64,000 nt of DNA from Macrococcoides canis (GTDB taxonomy: Bacteria > Bacillota > Bacilli > Staphylococcales > Staphylococcaceae). The DNA lies in NCBI RefSeq assembly GCF_002119805.1, contig NZ_CP021059.1:992001-1056000 (forward strand). The letters run 5' to 3'. The first letter of the stretch is position 1; the number at the start of each line of letters is the position of its first letter. Below the pieces are notes generated by a model that was given only the letters and a program-made list of their open reading frames with translations, was not told the DNA's origin and did no database searches. This document shows, in pieces, positions 22,889 through 30,900 of this stretch. The position numbers and the translations under genes were made by a program.

Positions 22889-23236
22889 ATGAATAACAAA
22901 TTAATCGAAGCAGTAACAAAAGAACAATTACGTACAGACATTCCTGCATTCCGTCCTGGTGACACTTTAAAAGTGCACGTACGTATCGTTGAGGGATCTC
23001 GCGAACGTATCCAGGTTTACGAAGGTGTAGTAATTAAACGTCGTGGTGGCGGAATTTCTGAAACTTTCACAGTTCGTAAAATTTCATACGGTGTTGGTGT
23101 TGAACGTACATTCCCTGTACACACACCTAAAATCGAGAAAATTGAAGTATTACGTCGTGGTAAAGTACGTCGTGCTAAATTGTACTACTTACGTAGCTTA
23201 CGTGGTAAAGCTGCACGTATTAAAGAAATTCGCTAA
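22889..23236 (+). CDS. rplS: 50S ribosomal protein L19
   Basis: L19 sits at the 30S-50S interface. The 115-residue protein has the family segments [39 protein letters not shown] and the basic end [26 protein letters not shown] precedes ATG 22889. It follows trmD as in nearly all bacteria but has its own promoter and leader. Downstream lies a complex inverted-repeat region that faces the convergent YfhO gene. Confidence 0.98.
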
Positions 23237-23250
23237 TATTAGACAAACAG

Positions 23251-23370
23251 AGAGGCTGGGACAGAAGTGTTCTGCCACAAGCAAAAACCGAACAAAACTA
23301 ATAAATCGTTCTTTGATTTATAGTTTTTGTTCGGTTTTTGTCGTAGGGGCAACTTCTGTTCCGCCGTTTA
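23251..23370. repeat. composite inverted-repeat element (AGAGGCTGGGACAGAAGT type)
   Basis: Between rplS and the convergent YfhO gene lies a nested hairpin. Outer arms GGGACAGAAGT (23258-23268) and ACTTCTGTTCC (23352-23362) enclose an inner stem of about 26 bp with few mismatches (23282-23307 with 23315-23340, loop GTTCTTT). The opening AGAGGCTGGGACAGA resembles the AGGCTGGGACAnAA intergenic repeats that I recall as common in staphylococci. It may terminate rplS transcription or be a small non-autonomous repeat. Confidence 0.65.
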
Positions 23371-23375
23371 AGCTG

Positions 23376-23425
23376 TTAAACAGAAGAGGGCTAGAGACTT
23401 ATGTCTCTAGCCCTCTTCTGTTTAA
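23376..23425. terminator. perfect 23-bp palindrome, likely bidirectional terminator of rplS and yfhO
   Basis: Arms 23376-23398 and 23403-23425 are perfectly complementary around a 4-base loop TTAT. The YfhO stop codon lies in the loop. Flanking T-tracts are short. It sits between convergent genes, so it probably serves both. Confidence 0.7.
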
Positions 23426-25993
23426 ATAACGAATATATAAGAAGGTAAGAAGCATGCCTATAACAGAAATTATCTGCATTAGATGGAAATATGGCGGTGT
23501 ATATTTAATCGTAATATGTTTTGCATCAGCATCAACCTTGACGGCCGTCATCAAGTAATTCCCTTCAGATATCTGTGCATCTTTACCATCAACTTTAGCA
23601 GTCATGCCCTCTAAAAATGGAACGGGTATAACCACATAGCCTGCTTTATGCTTTGCGAGTGTAATCTCCATCTTGTCTTTGTTCTTCTTAAATAGGTGGG
23701 TATTTGTATTTTTTGAAGCATCTTTAAGATGTTGATAATCCTCACCATATATTCCAAGCAATTTATAGTCATAAGTACCTGTCTTTAATTTTAGGTCGAT
23801 AAGATCTGTCGCTTTGATCTTTAGCGTGATTACAGGATTAAATCGTCTGTAATCATCATTCAAAGGTTTTCTTGATTGGTAAATTTCATTGATCCATACA
23901 TAATGATAATCTGTTGCTGTCTTTGATTCAATGCTTAAAGTTACATATAAGTCCTTGTATCTATTGATCTTCTTTTTATCAAGTTTATAAGTAATGCCGC
24001 CATTTTCCTGATTAACAATAAGCTCATTTCCTTTTAGTGTTGCATTACGTAATTCAGGTTTAGCATCTTTGAGTAAGTTTCTTTGAGGTTTAATCTTACT
24101 GTTTCCTTTATCATCGAGCACAACACCATTCAGCATCGCATGCTCTCTGTCTATAGGTTGTTTTAGATCCTTTTTATTATAGACTTTGTTGGTAACACGG
24201 ACGAATGGGAGTTTATTTGTATTATTATAGACATAATACTTTTGAGACAGATCGTTCTCAGCGTAGAGATTACCACGTTCATAGCCATATGGAATGGTCA
24301 TCGATTCATTGACTCTGACAATCTGATTGACATTAAATAAACTATTTAAGTTAGCGCGTTCACCGAGACGATAGTAAATAGAATTACTATCTGTATCCAT
24401 CGTAATATTCAGATCCTTATCATAAAACTGATAAATATCTTTGTTAAAGATGCTTGAATATAATTTTATCCCATTATACTGCATCAACATCGGTGTATTG
24501 TGTGTAATAGACGTTTGCCAGTCTATACGGTCGCCCGGTTTTTGTACTGCTTTAATTTCATCGATAATTCTGTTTTGAATCGGTGATTGATAAGCTTTAC
24601 TTGTAATATATTCGATATTTCGTTCCTTTTCAGGATGCAGCGTATCAATCTGTTCGGTCATATATTCATAGACAAAGAAATTGGTCATAATAAAAATGAC
24701 GGCGTGCGTGAGTATATAGAGATATCTTTTTTCGTTATAGATATAAAATCCGATCAGAATACAGAATATCGGAATGTAGATCAGCCAGATCAGAAACTTC
24801 TCGTGACCAATCGCTGAAATTGGATAGATGAACAGGGCAGGTATTAAAGATATTAGAAATGACTTCATATTAAGTTCACTCAATTTATCGAGATAGAGTG
24901 CTGCTAGTACGGAAGTCGTAAATACGAGCAGATAAATCCATCTTCTCTGGTCAATTGAGAACCCATTAAAGAAACTATCGAAATATGGGCTTAATGAGCC
25001 GAGCATAAAGATAATTGAAAGTATCGCGTAAAGTCTATAGTCATAATGCTTATACAATACAAATGTTGCAAGTGCGATAACTGCGACTGCTGTAATAACG
25101 ACATAATAGCCGTCATAAAATAAATTATAGAATCCGACCATATCAATAATAGGATTAAGTTTAAATGGTGGTAATGTACGGTCGTTCATCAAGTAGCTCG
25201 TAGCTCCAGTAAAGAAACCGACGCTGCTTATTAAAAGCGCGAGTATACCACTGATACTTCCGGTAATCAGCTTTTGTCTTCTATTCAGAAGATCACTATC
25301 TTTGTTAAAAATCGTACGATAAATAAAATATACTGCTACAAAAATAAATTCGTAGTAGCTGAAATAAAAGTTAGCGTGCAGCGTTAATGCAACAGCGACA
25401 ATAAATAACAGCGGCTTTCTTTCTCTGAAAAGTCGTTCCAGACCAAAAATGGTCATCGGTAGCCATAGCATTACATCACTGAAGAAACTCCATGTGAAGG
25501 TGAAGAAATAGTAAGCGGTTGACCAGCCATATATAAAACTCCCAGTGAAAGCTGCATATCGATTTATATTCATATATCTCAGAAATTTATAAGTGACAAA
25601 GAATATAAGGGATAACTTAATGATTGAGATAAAGATTTGATTTTTTGCCCAGAATACTGGATCTGTTACATCATAAGGTAAAAACAGATCTCCGATATAA
25701 ACACAGATAAAATTTAGATAAGTCAGGGGAGAAGTGGCGTAGTAATAGGATAGACTTTTAAAGAAGTCTCCGCCAATTCCAAAATCCATATCATAGAAGA
25801 AGTGGAAATTTGAAAACTTATTGTACAGATACATTTGAAAAGGAAGCATCTGTGCAATTCCGTCACCTTTACCTGTAAATAATGTCCCGCGGTCAAACAT
25901 ACGATAAAGGACAACACTATGTGCAATAAGAGCACATAGTATTGAGCCAAGCAGTATTGAAATATTTGGATAACGCTTAAATCTTTGTTTCAT
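23399..25993 (-). CDS. YfhO-family GT-C membrane glycosyltransferase, second copy
   Basis: An 864-residue integral membrane protein of the YfhO family. In S. aureus and Bacillus, YfhO is the GT-C-type enzyme thought to move a sugar from a lipid carrier onto lipoteichoic acid outside the membrane. It has about a dozen N-terminal membrane segments (residues 10 to about 465). The first outside loop has TGKGDGIAQMLP (Asp44) and FFYDMDFGIGGD, acidic residues likely to be catalytic. A soluble outer domain (about 480-830) has the IDREHAM motif, and one C-terminal membrane helix ends the fold. It overlaps the end of the other YfhO gene by 17 bases. Its last residues (LNRRGLET) are encoded inside a palindrome, so the tail may be a recent extension. 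Confidence 0.88.
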   Translation of the reverse strand: MKQRFKRYPNISILLGSILCALIAHSVVLYRMFDRGTLFTGKGDGIAQMLPFQMYLYNKFSNFHFFYDMDFGIGGDFFKSLSYYYATSPLTYLNFICVYIGDLFLPYDVTDPVFWAKNQIFISIIKLSLIFFVTYKFLRYMNINRYAAFTGSFIYGWSTAYYFFTFTWSFFSDVMLWLPMTIFGLERLFRERKPLLFIVAVALTLHANFYFSYYEFIFVAVYFIYRTIFNKDSDLLNRRQKLITGSISGILALLISSVGFFTGATSYLMNDRTLPPFKLNPIIDMVGFYNLFYDGYYVVITAVAVIALATFVLYKHYDYRLYAILSIIFMLGSLSPYFDSFFNGFSIDQRRWIYLLVFTTSVLAALYLDKLSELNMKSFLISLIPALFIYPISAIGHEKFLIWLIYIPIFCILIGFYIYNEKRYLYILTHAVIFIMTNFFVYEYMTEQIDTLHPEKERNIEYITSKAYQSPIQNRIIDEIKAVQKPGDRIDWQTSITHNTPMLMQYNGIKLYSSIFNKDIYQFYDKDLNITMDTDSNSIYYRLGERANLNSLFNVNQIVRVNESMTIPYGYERGNLYAENDLSQKYYVYNNTNKLPFVRVTNKVYNKKDLKQPIDREHAMLNGVVLDDKGNSKIKPQRNLLKDAKPELRNATLKGNELIVNQENGGITYKLDKKKINRYKDLYVTLSIESKTATDYHYVWINEIYQSRKPLNDDYRRFNPVITLKIKATDLIDLKLKTGTYDYKLLGIYGEDYQHLKDASKNTNTHLFKKNKDKMEITLAKHKAGYVVIPVPFLEGMTAKVDGKDAQISEGNYLMTAVKVDADAKHITIKYTPPYFHLMQIISVIGMLLTFLYIRYLNRRGLET

Positions 25994-28574
25994 CTTTTGT
26001 TAACCTCGTAAATTTAATATAGAGTACAGCAAGGATGATTCCTAGAAGTGATAATAATATCATGAGATAAAAATATGGTGGTGTATATTTAAGAACGACT
26101 TCCTTTGTATCTTTAGTGACTGGGATCGTCGATATTATATAATTGCCACGCTTCACTTCAGTTTTCTGACCATCCACGTAAGCTTTCATACCTTCTCGAT
26201 ATACGATAGGAACGACCATTGTGCCATCTTTAGAAGATTTTAGTCTGATGGTCATCTTATTACCTTCATCTTTGAACGTATAATCGATAGCTTTGTCTGC
26301 ATCATTCAGATGTTTATAATCTTCACCGTAGATACCATTAATCTTCAACTTATAGGTGCCTGGTGTCAGACCGATAAGAATCTTACCGTTTTCTGGTGAC
26401 TTTACACGGTAGAGTAAGTCATCATAATGTGTACGATATTTACTTGTCTGAAAGAGTCGATTGTTGGCATATTTGTTCACATTGATCTGATGATTCGTAA
26501 TCGGTGAAATAATTTCTACATGCATATCAACATAGAAATCTTTATATTTTTGTTGTAAGTCTTTAGGAATTTCGATGATTAACCCACCACTTGGAGGATC
26601 AACCTTAAGTTTTTCATTTTGAGCGAGCCAGTTTGAACCGCTAGTTTTGACTTGTACTTTATCGATTAAATTTTTATTCTTCTTAAAAGGATAACTTGTA
26701 GGTTCATCTTCTGAAATGATTCCTTCAATCATTGCATGTTCTCGGTCAATAATTTCAGAGACATCATTCGTATTGACAAACTTATCCGTAATTCTGACAA
26801 AAGGAATCGGTTTTGTATTTTCGTATACTTTATATTTTCCGTCATTCTGAATAAGTTTAAAGTTTTCAGGTACGTCAGTCTGATACGCTTTACGAACAAG
26901 ATATTTTACATTGAATAATGATTCAAGGTTGCTTCTTGACTGAAAAGTGGAATAGCGACTCACTGATTCTTCCTTAAGATTAATCTTCATGTCCTTAAAA
27001 TAAAAATCAACTAAAGCACCGTCGAATATACTTGAATATAGACTTACACCTTTAAATCCTTGATACATCGGTGTATTATCCTGCTCCAGCACACGCCAGT
27101 CAATGCGTTCATCAGCTTTTGTCTTTCGTTTTAACTGATCGATTATATGCTGTTGCAGCGGTGAATCATAGACACTGGATTCAATATAGCTCATCTTCGC
27201 TCGGTCATTGATACCTGGATTATAGTTATCCAGTTTATTATGTACACGAATGATGTCCCAGTTGAAGATAAGAATCACGATAATCATAGCAATATACAGC
27301 ATTTGCTGATGTTTCTTATCCTTTACGATCAATACAAAGAATCCGATGATAATGATGATCGGTATAATGTATATCCAGCTCACTGCTTTATGAATCATGA
27401 AATGACTCGTGAACACTATTATTATTCCTGGAACAATGGAGAGCAGATATTGTCTTATCGATATTGTTCTAAAGCGCATAATATACATGCCGATCAGACC
27501 GCTTGTAAAGAATGATATTAAGTAATGCCAGCGTTTTTGCGGAGCACTGAATCCATTGAATACAGAATCGATAAATGGTGTAAAGCTTAAACACATGAAG
27601 ATAATAGACATTATGCTAAAGAATCGGTAAAAATAACTGTCATATAATTTAAAGGTAAAGAGGGCCTGTACCGCTAAGAACAATACTATGACCAAATAAT
27701 TATCATAGAAGATATTCGCATTCTGATCGAAAGGATCAAAAAGAGGAATACCCGCTTTATATGGCGCACGTTCATTTTGAAGGAAGCTCTTAACGCCATA
27801 GAAGAAGAACATACTGCTGATCAATATTCCGATGACTGACATAATGACGAAATGAAACCACTGTGTCTTACGCAATACGGCATCATATTGTGATCTGAAT
27901 ATATTCCTTGCAATAAAATAGATAAGTCCAGCAAGGAGATGGTAATATGCAAAATAGAAATTATTGATGAATATCAGCGCAACGGCAATAATAAATATAG
28001 AACGTTTCTTATTCTGTATAAAATATTCAATCCCAAGCAACATAAATGGTAAGAAAATAAAGACATCGCTAAAAAATGACCAGTATAATGTAAATCTGAA
28101 GTAAATTGCAGATATGACAAATAAAAACGCTGCAAGCATTGCTGACGTATCGTTTAATCGAATTTTCCTGAAGTATAGATAACTGATACTTATCGCCAGT
28201 GCCGATTTAAATATAGATACATAAAAAGCATTCTTTGCCCAGAAACTGATGCTATCTGTTTTAAAATTGAAGAACAGATCAAGTATCCAGACGAAAATGA
28301 TGTTGATGTAGTAAATGATATTTGTTGAATAGTAATATGATAGGTCGGTAAAATAGTCGCCGCCAAGACCGAAATCCATACTATAGAACAGTTCTCCTTT
28401 AATAAATTTCTGATAGAGATAGAGCTGCATCGGCAGCATCTGTTCTAATCCGTCATTAGGACCTGTGAATATTGTTCCGTCCTTTAAAAATCGATAAATA
28501 TAAAAACTATGTCCAAAAATAGCGAGTAGCAATGCAATCAATGGAATAAATACTTTTCTGTTGTTTTTCATCAT
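25977..28574 (-). CDS. YfhO-family GT-C membrane glycosyltransferase, first copy
   Basis: An 865-residue paralogue of the next gene with the same plan. It has multiple N-terminal membrane helices, TGPNDGLEQMLP (Asp41) and MDFGLGGDYF in the first outside loop, and a globular outer domain with IDREHAM. A KYTPPYFYLM segment leads into the last helix. Both copies keep these anchors while much of the rest differs, so they are diverged duplicates rather than a recent copy. GGAGTAA precedes ATG 28574, which directly abuts the stop of the GtrA-type gene. In S. aureus a single YfhO lies at this same place between rplS and rbgA (recalled). Substrate here is inferred, not shown. Confidence 0.88.
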   Translation of the reverse strand: MMKNNRKVFIPLIALLLAIFGHSFYIYRFLKDGTIFTGPNDGLEQMLPMQLYLYQKFIKGELFYSMDFGLGGDYFTDLSYYYSTNIIYYINIIFVWILDLFFNFKTDSISFWAKNAFYVSIFKSALAISISYLYFRKIRLNDTSAMLAAFLFVISAIYFRFTLYWSFFSDVFIFLPFMLLGIEYFIQNKKRSIFIIAVALIFINNFYFAYYHLLAGLIYFIARNIFRSQYDAVLRKTQWFHFVIMSVIGILISSMFFFYGVKSFLQNERAPYKAGIPLFDPFDQNANIFYDNYLVIVLFLAVQALFTFKLYDSYFYRFFSIMSIIFMCLSFTPFIDSVFNGFSAPQKRWHYLISFFTSGLIGMYIMRFRTISIRQYLLSIVPGIIIVFTSHFMIHKAVSWIYIIPIIIIIGFFVLIVKDKKHQQMLYIAMIIVILIFNWDIIRVHNKLDNYNPGINDRAKMSYIESSVYDSPLQQHIIDQLKRKTKADERIDWRVLEQDNTPMYQGFKGVSLYSSIFDGALVDFYFKDMKINLKEESVSRYSTFQSRSNLESLFNVKYLVRKAYQTDVPENFKLIQNDGKYKVYENTKPIPFVRITDKFVNTNDVSEIIDREHAMIEGIISEDEPTSYPFKKNKNLIDKVQVKTSGSNWLAQNEKLKVDPPSGGLIIEIPKDLQQKYKDFYVDMHVEIISPITNHQINVNKYANNRLFQTSKYRTHYDDLLYRVKSPENGKILIGLTPGTYKLKINGIYGEDYKHLNDADKAIDYTFKDEGNKMTIRLKSSKDGTMVVPIVYREGMKAYVDGQKTEVKRGNYIISTIPVTKDTKEVVLKYTPPYFYLMILLSLLGIILAVLYIKFTRLTKDETKI

Positions 28575-28952
28575 TTACTCCTTTGTTAAGATATAGGTTG
28601 TAACTAAATATGTAACTGGTATCGTAAAGATTAATGCAGGAAATGGCGCATAAACTTTATCGATATGTAATAGTTCTACAAAAATATAGAGCAGTAATGT
28701 CTGTACTCCCATATTTACGATTTGGGTTAACGGAAACTGAATGAATTTTTTAATAGTGGGTTTAACTTTATAAACAAAATAGCAGTTTAAAAAGTATGAA
28801 ATAATGAATGAAACGAGAAATCCTGTTAAATGACTCGTTATATAACTCAAACTTAAAAACTTTAATAACAGCAAATAGACAATGTAATAATTCAGCGTAT
28901 TTAATACGCCTACAATAATAAACTTTATAAGCCTGCCGTATCGCTCTATCAT
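28575..28952 (-). CDS. GtrA/GtcA-family membrane protein, probable undecaprenyl-phosphate-sugar flippase
   Basis: A 125-residue protein with four predicted membrane helices (about 9-27, 34-55, 72-92 and 100-121), the whole length of the GtrA family. Family members carry lipid-linked sugars across the membrane for O-antigen, teichoic acid or arabinogalactan decoration. In S. aureus and Listeria the name is GtcA. It overlaps the glycosyltransferase gene by four bases (ATGA) and touches the first YfhO gene, which supports a joint function. The sequence does not show which sugar is handled. Confidence 0.87.
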   Translation of the reverse strand: MIERYGRLIKFIIVGVLNTLNYYIVYLLLLKFLSLSYITSHLTGFLVSFIISYFLNCYFVYKVKPTIKKFIQFPLTQIVNMGVQTLLLYIFVELLHIDKVYAPFPALIFTIPVTYLVTTYILTKE

Positions 28953-29905
28953 GCGCGCTTTCTCACTTTCTCCTGGAAATCACTCTCGTCGATATTAGTA
29001 TCACTGATAATATAATGCGGTCGGCCTTTCGTTTCATAATAGATACGTCCGATATATTCTCCGATTATTCCAAGTCCAAATAATTGAACAGAACCGAGAA
29101 ACAATACGGATGCAATGATTGTGAAATAACCAGGTGACTCTACGCCATGGCGCATTATCTGTATGAATGTGATTAATATATAGAGTAAGCATAACGTCAT
29201 AGTGATTGCACCAAAATGGAAACACAGACGTAACGGTTTATTGTTGTAGCTGATAATTCCGTCAATTGCATAGTCAACCAGTCTTTTTAGAGAAAATGAA
29301 GATTGTCCCTCAAAACGTTCGATATTTTTAAAGTTCAATGTTTTCTTGCTGAAGCCGACCCACTCAAATATCCCTTTAGAGAATCGGTTATATTCTTTCA
29401 ATGAAAGGATACTGTCAATTACACGTCTTGAGATGAGACGGAAATCACCTTCACCATCCGTTAACTGAATATCAACGGCATTGTTGATTAATTTGTAGAA
29501 TAACTGTGTCGGAAACTTTCTGATGGCATGTTCACCAGATCGATCTCTACGCATTACAACCTGGTCATAACCTTGTAGATAATACTGGATCATCTCAGGT
29601 ATTCGTTCAGGGGGGTGCTGCAAATCTGCATCTAGTATAACAGCACAATCTCCTCTGGCAGCATTGAGCCCGGCAATCATTGCGGACTCTTTGCCAAAAT
29701 TACGAGAAAATGAAATATATCTTATTTGCGGGAAAAGTAATGCCTGCTCCCTTATGATTGATAAAGAGTTATCCTTACTCCCATCGTTGATAAGTATGAG
29801 TTCGTATTTGAACTTATTGCTATGCATCACAGCATCAATCTTTTCTGTAAGCAGCTGAATATTCTTTTCTTCATTATAAATTGGTGCGATGAGTGAAATT
29901 AGCAT
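28949..29905 (-). CDS. csbB: CsbB/GtrB-type polyprenyl-phosphate glycosyltransferase (GT2)
   Basis: A 318-residue enzyme of the DPM1-like GT2 family that loads a sugar onto undecaprenyl phosphate on the inner face of the membrane. The GT-A domain (1 to about 215) has APIYNEE, LINDGSKD and the metal-binding DADLQHPP (Asp92 and Asp94). Two C-terminal helices (about 232-256 and 264-288) anchor it. In Bacillus and S. aureus CsbB makes the GlcNAc-lipid used for lipoteichoic acid; the same sugar is likely but unproven here. AAGGAG precedes ATG 29905. It heads the four-gene minus-strand operon and is divergent from rbgA. Confidence 0.88.
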   Translation of the reverse strand: MLISLIAPIYNEEKNIQLLTEKIDAVMHSNKFKYELILINDGSKDNSLSIIREQALLFPQIRYISFSRNFGKESAMIAGLNAARGDCAVILDADLQHPPERIPEMIQYYLQGYDQVVMRRDRSGEHAIRKFPTQLFYKLINNAVDIQLTDGEGDFRLISRRVIDSILSLKEYNRFSKGIFEWVGFSKKTLNFKNIERFEGQSSFSLKRLVDYAIDGIISYNNKPLRLCFHFGAITMTLCLLYILITFIQIMRHGVESPGYFTIIASVLFLGSVQLFGLGIIGEYIGRIYYETKGRPHYIISDTNIDESDFQEKVRKRA

Positions 29906-29937
29906 AAAGACTCCTTAAGTATTATGTTAAAATGTTA

Positions 29938-29969
29938 ATTATAAATCATAAAGATATTTTAACATACAA
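29938..29969 (-). promoter_or_regulatory. candidate promoter for the glycosylation operon
   Basis: On the minus strand TATAAT (29943-29938) is about 30 bases before the glycosyltransferase start. A TTGTAT at 29969-29964 is 20 bases upstream, longer than ideal. No sigma-B type box (GTTT...GGGTAT) is evident. Confidence 0.4.
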
Positions 29970-30027
29970 TGAAGAAATTCGGACTTTGTATGATGATTAA
30001 TTTAAATAACTGGAAAGAAGTGAGATT

Positions 30028-30900
30028 ATGGCGATACAATGGTTCCCGGGACATATGGCGAAAGCGAGAAGAGAAGTTACAGAACAGCTGAAACTTGTAG
30101 ATGTTGTATTTGAACTTGTTGATGCACGTATTCCATACTCTTCGCGTAACCCTATGATTGATGAAGTGATCAAGGATAAACCGCGTGTAGTATTATTGAA
30201 TAAGATGGATATGGCCAACTTGAACGAAACGAAGAAATGGATGCAATTCTTTGAAGATAAAGGTTTCTATCCTGTGCTGATTGATAGTAAGAACGGAAAG
30301 AACTTATCTCAGGTGACAAAGGCTGCAGAAATTGTAACGCAGGAAAAGTTTGATCGTATGAGACAAAAAGGGTTGAGACCACGTGCAATTCGAGCGATGA
30401 TTGTCGGAATTCCTAATGTCGGAAAATCAACATTGATCAATCGACTTGCAAAAAAATCAATTGCGAAGACAGGAAATATGCCTGGTGTAACAAAGAAACA
30501 GCAGTGGATTAAAGTAGGAAAGACTCTGGAATTATTAGATACTCCAGGGATTCTATGGCCAAAGTTTGAAGATCAGACGGTCGGCAAAAAATTAAGCTTA
30601 ACAGGGGCAATTAAAGACAGCATCGTTCATTTAGATGAAGTTGCAATATACGGCATTTCATTTTTGCAGGAAAGAGACCTAGCAACGTTTAACAAGCATT
30701 ATAACATTGATGTTACTGCAGATACACCCTACCTAGAAGTATTTGATGCGATTGGTAGAAGTCGCGGTCTAAAGTTAAAAGGGAATGAAATCGATTATGA
30801 GTCAGTTGTGGAATTGATCATCCGAGATATTCGTAACGAAAAAATTGGAAAATATACATTCGATCATATTTCGATGCTAGAGGAAAATAATGAACAGTAA
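30028..30900 (+). CDS. rbgA: ribosome biogenesis GTPase RbgA (YlqF)
   Basis: RbgA is an essential GTPase for a late step of 50S assembly. The 290-residue protein is a circularly permuted GTPase: NKMD (G4) comes before GIPNVGKST (P-loop) and DTPG (G3). It begins with the family motif [14 protein letters not shown], and a C-terminal helical domain binds rRNA. GAAGTGAGATT precedes ATG 30028. It overlaps rnhB by 11 bases; the rbgA-rnhB pair is standard. The promoter is not obvious. Confidence 0.97.

Follow-up and report, generated by a model that had tools for sequence, protein, structure and literature searches.

The genome of Macrococcoides canis carries, within the 64,000-nucleotide stretch analysed here (the window; NCBI RefSeq assembly GCF_002119805.1, contig NZ_CP021059.1, positions 992,001 to 1,056,000), a four-gene operon of the order csbB-gtcA-yfhO-yfhO, entirely on the minus strand and placed between rplS and rbgA. 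The operon encodes every component of the known CsbB/GtcA/YfhO three-component glycosylation pathway. Judged by sequence comparison, its two YfhO enzymes belong to ancient paralogue classes, here called A and B, that have been distinct since before the genera split, and the csbB-gtcA-yfhO cluster looks like the form ancestral to Staphylococcaceae and Salinicoccus. On balance, we favor a reading in which this ancestral cluster joins one donor-supply line to two outside-facing transferases with different sites.

A complete three-component pathway in one operon

An earlier note on this DNA, made from the sequence alone, had described four minus-strand genes between rplS and rbgA encoding one CsbB/GtrB-type, one GtrA/GtcA-type and two YfhO-type proteins. 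Both the positions and the classes were borne out, the former by gene calls (Table 1) and the latter by Pfam, with PF00535 for CsbB, PF04138 for GtcA and PF09586 for both YfhOs, every match lying above its cut-off. CsbB is a glycosyltransferase family 2 (GT2) polyprenyl-phosphate glycosyltransferase with a DXD-type motif, DADLQHP (DAD), and matches GtrB (5EKP) with a phmmer E of 2.1e-77. GtcA is the small membrane protein of the GtrA family (E 2.3e-23, 83 bits against a cut-off of 26.1). PF09586 spans the full length of both YfhO-type GT-C enzymes (484 and 468 bits). The note's end-to-start overlaps hold for two of the three junctions, csbB/gtcA (4 bp) and yfhO-A/yfhO-B (17 bp), whereas gtcA and yfhO-A simply abut (0 bp).

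Predicted structure models of the YfhOs have a GT-C fold, and an aspartate in a loop (D44/D41) is conserved in the alignment. The class A model also has an extracellular stretch that resembles CBM22/35. A sequence search of the PDB with YfhO gave no relative, its single match (E 0.15) being regarded as chance. The models share their fold with the GT-C enzymes AftD and STT3/PglB, and the predicted resemblance to AftD extends over the extracellular part; these enzymes differ in donors and acceptors, and identity in the structural alignments is at most 13%.

The two YfhOs represent ancient, distinct classes

A YfhO tree of 38 rows covering the family and Salinicoccus divides into two classes, one on each side of a branch with 100/100 support, and the split was present in all 200 bootstrap trees inspected. 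Quick trees of 93 and 79 rows agree; these also contain the class B row of genome G016, a piece of a broken gene that is outside the 38-row tree. Class A comprises the gene adjoining rbgA or gtcA together with the copy at the Salinicoccus locus, and class B the gene adjoining rplS. The two window proteins are 37% identical. In that Mammaliicoccus genome (L104, G016:C56) the class B yfhO is broken into two open frames.

The single YfhO of G029 and that of G027 both belong to class B. G029 was taken as S. aureus since published primers for cloning yfhO from S. aureus JE2 match exactly on both sides of its yfhO; G027, in which they find no match within 3 mismatches, is only a near relative. Constraining the S. 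aureus-type YfhO to class A was rejected by the approximately unbiased (AU) test (p=1.25e-13). The S. aureus YfhO is 38% identical to window class B, 30% to window class A and 33% to a further copy at C1:118956. The question whether a yfhO elsewhere in the genome matches S. aureus better thus has a divided answer, as the C1:118956 copy is nearer to the staphylococcal YfhOs in the tree but the window copy is more identical (38 versus 33%).

Each class occurs without the other, and neither class therefore needs the other. Only class A is present in G017, G021 and G023, and also in G018, where the gene is broken near its end; only class B is present in G026, G027 and G029, and in G025, which has three class B copies. 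G094, which has a second YfhO among the matches listed, was kept out of the class B-only set.

These data bear on whether the two YfhOs are redundant copies serving the same site on lipoteichoic acid (LTA). Redundancy would fit the polar and aromatic residues, which are fixed alike in the two classes with a single column fixed differently, and the existence of genomes with one class only. The classes have nevertheless stayed separate since before the genera split, stand side by side in 15 of the 16 Macrococcus-type genomes and differ at most positions within the window, and we regard redundancy as rather unlikely.

The cluster looks ancestral

Genomes were grouped as Macrococcus-type (group codes g1/g2/g4), Mammaliicoccus-type (g3) and Staphylococcus-group (g5). 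The Macrococcus-type sample consists of 16 genomes, G000 to G014 and G023, of which G000 is the genome of the window. The operon stands at the rplS-rbgA locus in 16/16, with two yfhO genes in 15 and one in G023. Because the order recurs in all 15 further Macrococcus-type genomes (G001 to G014 with two yfhO, G023 with one), the arrangement is not due to chance. Local assembly of a distinct system, one of two origins that the earlier note had offered, is not supported by this recurrence, and we reject an assembly specific to this genome. The other origin, an ancestral cluster, agrees with the shared order in Macrococcus-type and Salinicoccus loci.

A second sample consisted of 80 named loci found with CsbB as query. 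Here the order rbgA-csbB-gtcA-yfhO was found in 6/6 Macrococcus/Macrococcoides and 6/6 Salinicoccus loci; yfhO is present twice in five of the former and once in each of the latter. The csbB-gtcA-yfhO trio is also present in Litchfieldia and Domibacillus and in all seven Planococcus/Planomicrobium loci, the latter with no rbgA or rplS nearby. In three of the Mammaliicoccus loci csbB and yfhO are in place but gtcA is absent, and the fourth, situated elsewhere, pairs an additional csbB with part of a gtcA. None of 21 Staphylococcus csbB loci had gtcA, yfhO, rbgA or rplS in the flanks examined.

Among the grouped genomes, the Mammaliicoccus-type locus has csbB in 8/8 and gtcA in 0/8. Among 15 Staphylococcus-group rbgA-yfhO stretches, csbB is in none and gtcA in seven, and a hand count found gtcA adjoining yfhO in at least 19 of 84 Staphylococcus-group genomes. 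In G029 and G027, yfhO stands alone between rplS and rbgA (trmD-rplS-yfhO-rbgA), and the wider flanks of the window, trmD and rplS on one side and rbgA, rnhB and sucC on the other, are as in these two genomes. In S. aureus, csbB and gtcA lie more than 400 kb from the yfhO locus. The earlier note had given both points, the shared yfhO locus and the distance of the other two genes, correctly.

Its suggestion of later dispersal stands for gtcA, whereas csbB looks replaced. In a GtcA tree of 57 rows, the staphylococcal and Mammaliicoccus copies, whether at the locus or away from it, form one group (98/92) nested inside a Macrococcus-Salinicoccus-Staphylococcus group (99/97), and gtcA has therefore moved. 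The short flanks of the moved copies (approximately 1 kb) are common to 6/8 Mammaliicoccus-type genomes; the eight Staphylococcus-group genomes in which gtcA has moved likewise share theirs, on one of the two sides. No flank gene is common to the two sets, so gtcA must have moved at least twice.

In the CsbB tree (61 rows), the CsbBs encoded at the locus in Macrococcus, Mammaliicoccus and Salinicoccus form one 30-row group (100/99), with the staphylococcal CsbBs separate from it. AU tests were run after removal of three long or odd rows (L120, L158 and Shimazuella). A single Staphylococcaceae CsbB clade without Salinicoccus was rejected (p=0.004), but a clade of Staphylococcaceae plus Salinicoccus was not (p=0.225). 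We therefore set simple relocation lower without considering the matter settled; replacement of csbB in Staphylococcus by another lineage appears likelier than relocation on these trees but is not proved.

Two further observations concern these genes. In Mammaliicoccus lentus (L120, which is G016:C26:1-2500, and L077), a second csbB adjoins a gtcA piece less than 5 kb from genes of family PF04464 (see below), and in G024, G025, G045 and G059 csbB lies 7 to 9 kb from a PF04464 gene; such copies may represent a csbB lineage linked to wall teichoic acid (WTA). Separately, one genome of 108, G065, has no YfhO among the matches listed, no CsbB at E<=1e-40 and a broken gtrA. The three genes seem to have been lost together there, which fits a single pathway.

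Acceptor polymer and sugar

Canonical WTA was assessed through PF04464, the family of its primases and polymerases (TagB/TarB, TagF and TarL types). PF04464 has no match in the genome of the window, and the same search gives six in S. aureus G029. The family is missing from 10/16 Macrococcus-type genomes, present in the other six, and present in all 17 Mammaliicoccus-type and Staphylococcus-group genomes searched. In all ten Macrococcus-type genomes without PF04464, csbB, gtcA and two yfhO genes still stand at the locus, and canonical WTA is therefore not an obligatory acceptor of either class. Macrococcus has reportedly been described as lacking WTA; the words teichoic and glycosyl were not found in a 2026 Macrococcus review or in Macrococcus species papers of 2025 and 2018. 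The absence of PF04464 genes from this genome and the antiquity of the two YfhO classes both go beyond the earlier note.

Extracellular glycosylation of WTA, as by Lmo2550/GtcA/Lmo1079 in L. monocytogenes, would use the same three families, and six Macrococcus-type genomes do have PF04464 genes. The genome of the window differs from the L. monocytogenes 1/2a system, which adds N-acetylglucosamine (GlcNAc) to WTA, in having no PF04464 gene, a lack seen in 10 of the 16 Macrococcus-type genomes, all ten with two YfhOs at the locus. Non-canonical wall polymers are still conceivable acceptors, but we consider the WTA explanation very improbable.

LTA is the best candidate acceptor. A PF00884 (LtaS-type) gene is present once in each of 9 genomes searched, four of which have no PF04464; the LtaS cut-off, checked on the window genome's own copy only, is exceeded there (NCBIfam equivalog, 1025.6 bits against 970). 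Kho and Meredith are said to have described, in 2018, the CsbB/GtcA/YfhO system that adds GlcNAc to the LTA of S. aureus and B. subtilis. The sugar on the lipid carrier is probably GlcNAc, by analogy with S. aureus and B. subtilis, where the addition of GlcNAc to LTA depends on CsbB, GtcA and YfhO (Rismondo 2018, 2020); YfhO from B. subtilis shows specificity for both sugar and acceptor. The 'LTA-type' label that the earlier note gave to the operon is one that we infer.

An exported glycopolymer or glycolipid other than LTA could instead be the acceptor of one or both YfhOs. Systems made of a GT-A enzyme, a flippase and a GT-C enzyme act on many polymers (review table; PMC11127046), and this genome has four YfhOs, one of them directly after an apparent glycogen operon. 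Against such an acceptor stand the presence of LtaS, the teichoic polymerase found here, and the membership of class B in the class of the S. aureus enzyme, and we hold it to be doubtful.

Comparison with known systems

The operon shares with the LTA-GlcNAc system of S. aureus and B. subtilis the three protein classes, a class B YfhO and, in the case of S. aureus, the yfhO locus. It differs in being a single operon, in its extra class A YfhO and in a csbB on a non-staphylococcal branch. Three-in-one clustering by itself is not new, because clusters of the same logic are already known in GtrABX of Shigella phages and GtsABC of B. anthracis, where GT-A, flippase and GT-C genes likewise stand together; these differ from the window operon in their GT-C families and acceptors. 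We found no literature linking YfhO with Macrococcus, Mammaliicoccus or Salinicoccus, in that the word YfhO is absent from the ten papers listed of 102 matches.

The S. mutans PgfS-PgfM1-PgfE-PgfM2 system suggests another function, a two-step glycosylation of surface proteins that decorates adhesins. The best NCBIfam model of the window CsbB is PgfS (386 bits), and the Pgf operon likewise has one GT2 enzyme and two large membrane transferases, the second of which is proposed to add a terminal GlcNAc (PMC5856776). The PgfS score does not reach the curated cut-off of 500, however, and the S. aureus CsbB from G029, run as a control, scores higher (405 bits); the match therefore does not discriminate, and we reject CsbB as a PgfS. 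The window YfhOs have no PgfM1 or PgfM2 match at E<=0.001, and no gene for a PgfE-type UDP-sugar (uridine diphosphate sugar) epimerase is present in 22889-30900, so that no PgfS, PgfM1 or PgfM2 equivalog and no PgfE accompanies the operon. Class A or B alone in several genomes is also unlike an obligatory two-step pair, and Pgf itself has a protein acceptor and an epimerase; in the main text of the Pgf paper the words flippase and GtrA are absent (PMC5856776). Surface-protein glycosylation of this kind is accordingly quite unlikely.

Further yfhO genes in the genome

The 2.36-Mb single-contig genome has four YfhO genes, one GtrA match and one CsbB relative, the last two being the window's own GtcA and CsbB, for which no second match was found at E<=0.001. 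The earlier note had singled out closer counterparts of the S. aureus csbB and gtcA elsewhere in the genome as one finding that would undo its proposal, and there are none; its account needs widening by the two yfhO copies outside the window operon.

One of these, at C1:118956-121418, lies beside apparent hydroxyacid dehydrogenase, cobW-type protein and catalase genes, a location shared with G001, and its product has weak PgfM1 and PgfM2 matches (28 bits against a cut-off of 1400 and 26 bits against 1500, respectively). The other, at C1:964438-966909 (L008 8382-10979), lies a short way past an apparent glycogen operon and is a long-branched class B relative. Eight genomes of the same genus have two or three YfhOs. 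With one CsbB and one GtrA protein for four YfhOs, all four transferases would depend on a single donor line, unless some receive their donor from more distantly related GT2 enzymes.

Operon boundaries and neighboring features

The divergent csbB-rbgA intergenic stretch contains an inverted repeat that is a possible operator. G001, G004 and G008, the nearest three relatives, share its motif (arms of 10 to 13 bp), and the remaining Macrococcus-type genomes have different or no perfect repeats in this gap. At the other end of the operon, a perfect hairpin (-38.3 kcal/mol, z -11.5) is followed by no T run and is absent from the terminator calls of a consensus scan. The long hairpin between rplS and yfhO-B (z -8.2 on the minus strand and -6.4 on the plus strand), also absent from those calls, is perhaps a two-way transcription terminator. 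A promoter scan came out barely above shuffled sequence (43 matches versus 35.9, standard deviation 5.7). Apart from the operon, L007 50-787 encodes a surface protein in which an 11-residue repeat (DNMQQKDMNNM) occurs many times and which carries an LPDTG anchor.

Table 1. Features of the csbB-gtcA-yfhO-yfhO locus (positions in the window)
Feature	Position	Strand	Description
rplS	22889..23236	+	syntenic flank
Long hairpin	23255..23350	both	between rplS and yfhO-B
Perfect 21-bp hairpin	23378..23423	-	operon end; yfhO-B stop codon in loop
yfhO class B (yfhO-B)	23399..25993	-	864 aa; GT-C glycosyltransferase; rplS-proximal
yfhO class A (yfhO-A)	25977..28574	-	865 aa; GT-C glycosyltransferase; rbgA-proximal
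gtcA	28575..28952	-	125 aa; GtrA family, putative flippase for lipid-linked sugar
csbB	28949..29905	-	318 aa; GT2 polyprenyl-phosphate sugar synthase, GtrB/CsbB type
Inverted repeat	29923..29966		11-bp arms, 22-bp spacer; divergent csbB-rbgA intergenic stretch
rbgA	30028..30900	+	syntenic flank

Proposed mechanism and implications

In the mechanism that we infer from gene content, predicted folds, YfhO classes, synteny, the absence of PF04464 and the presence of LtaS, CsbB would use a UDP-sugar to load undecaprenyl phosphate with its sugar, most likely GlcNAc, and GtcA would carry the lipid-linked sugar to the outer leaflet. Both GT-C enzymes would then use the same donor. The class B YfhO would place the sugar on the glycerol-phosphate chain of LTA, and the class A YfhO would act at a second site, which may be another LTA position or sugar, the LTA anchor or another exported polymer. 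One donor line for several YfhOs is supported by L. monocytogenes 4b, where, according to the entry in a review table, one GT-A serves two GT-Cs. In Staphylococcus, gtcA would have moved away in many species and csbB would probably have been replaced by another lineage elsewhere, while the S. aureus lineage would have lost class A and kept class B.

Several points weigh against this account. The L. monocytogenes YfhO (Lmo1079) is described as glycosylating WTA, which means that the acceptor cannot be read from membership of the family. Classes A and B have differing residues, each at least 95% fixed, in a single alignment column, so the core residues give no sign of a difference in acceptor. 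The staphylococcal class B enzymes group with Mammaliicoccus class B and the extra C1:118956 copy (100/99) and not with window class B. The AU test that spared a joint CsbB clade with Salinicoccus also counts here, as does the fact that we found no description of the envelope chemistry of this organism in the literature.

The wider proposal, which we put forward tentatively, is that Staphylococcaceae possess two ancient, non-equivalent YfhOs that would draw on one shared lipid-linked sugar for two different envelope targets. Class A, lost in the S. aureus lineage, might then represent an undescribed surface glycosylation that persists in macrococci without canonical WTA genes. The dispersed positions that csbB, gtcA and yfhO have in S. 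aureus would be a derived state whose order of events is largely readable, and the second YfhO class could not have been seen by work on S. aureus. Macrococci without PF04464 genes would offer a clean background for learning the target of each YfhO.

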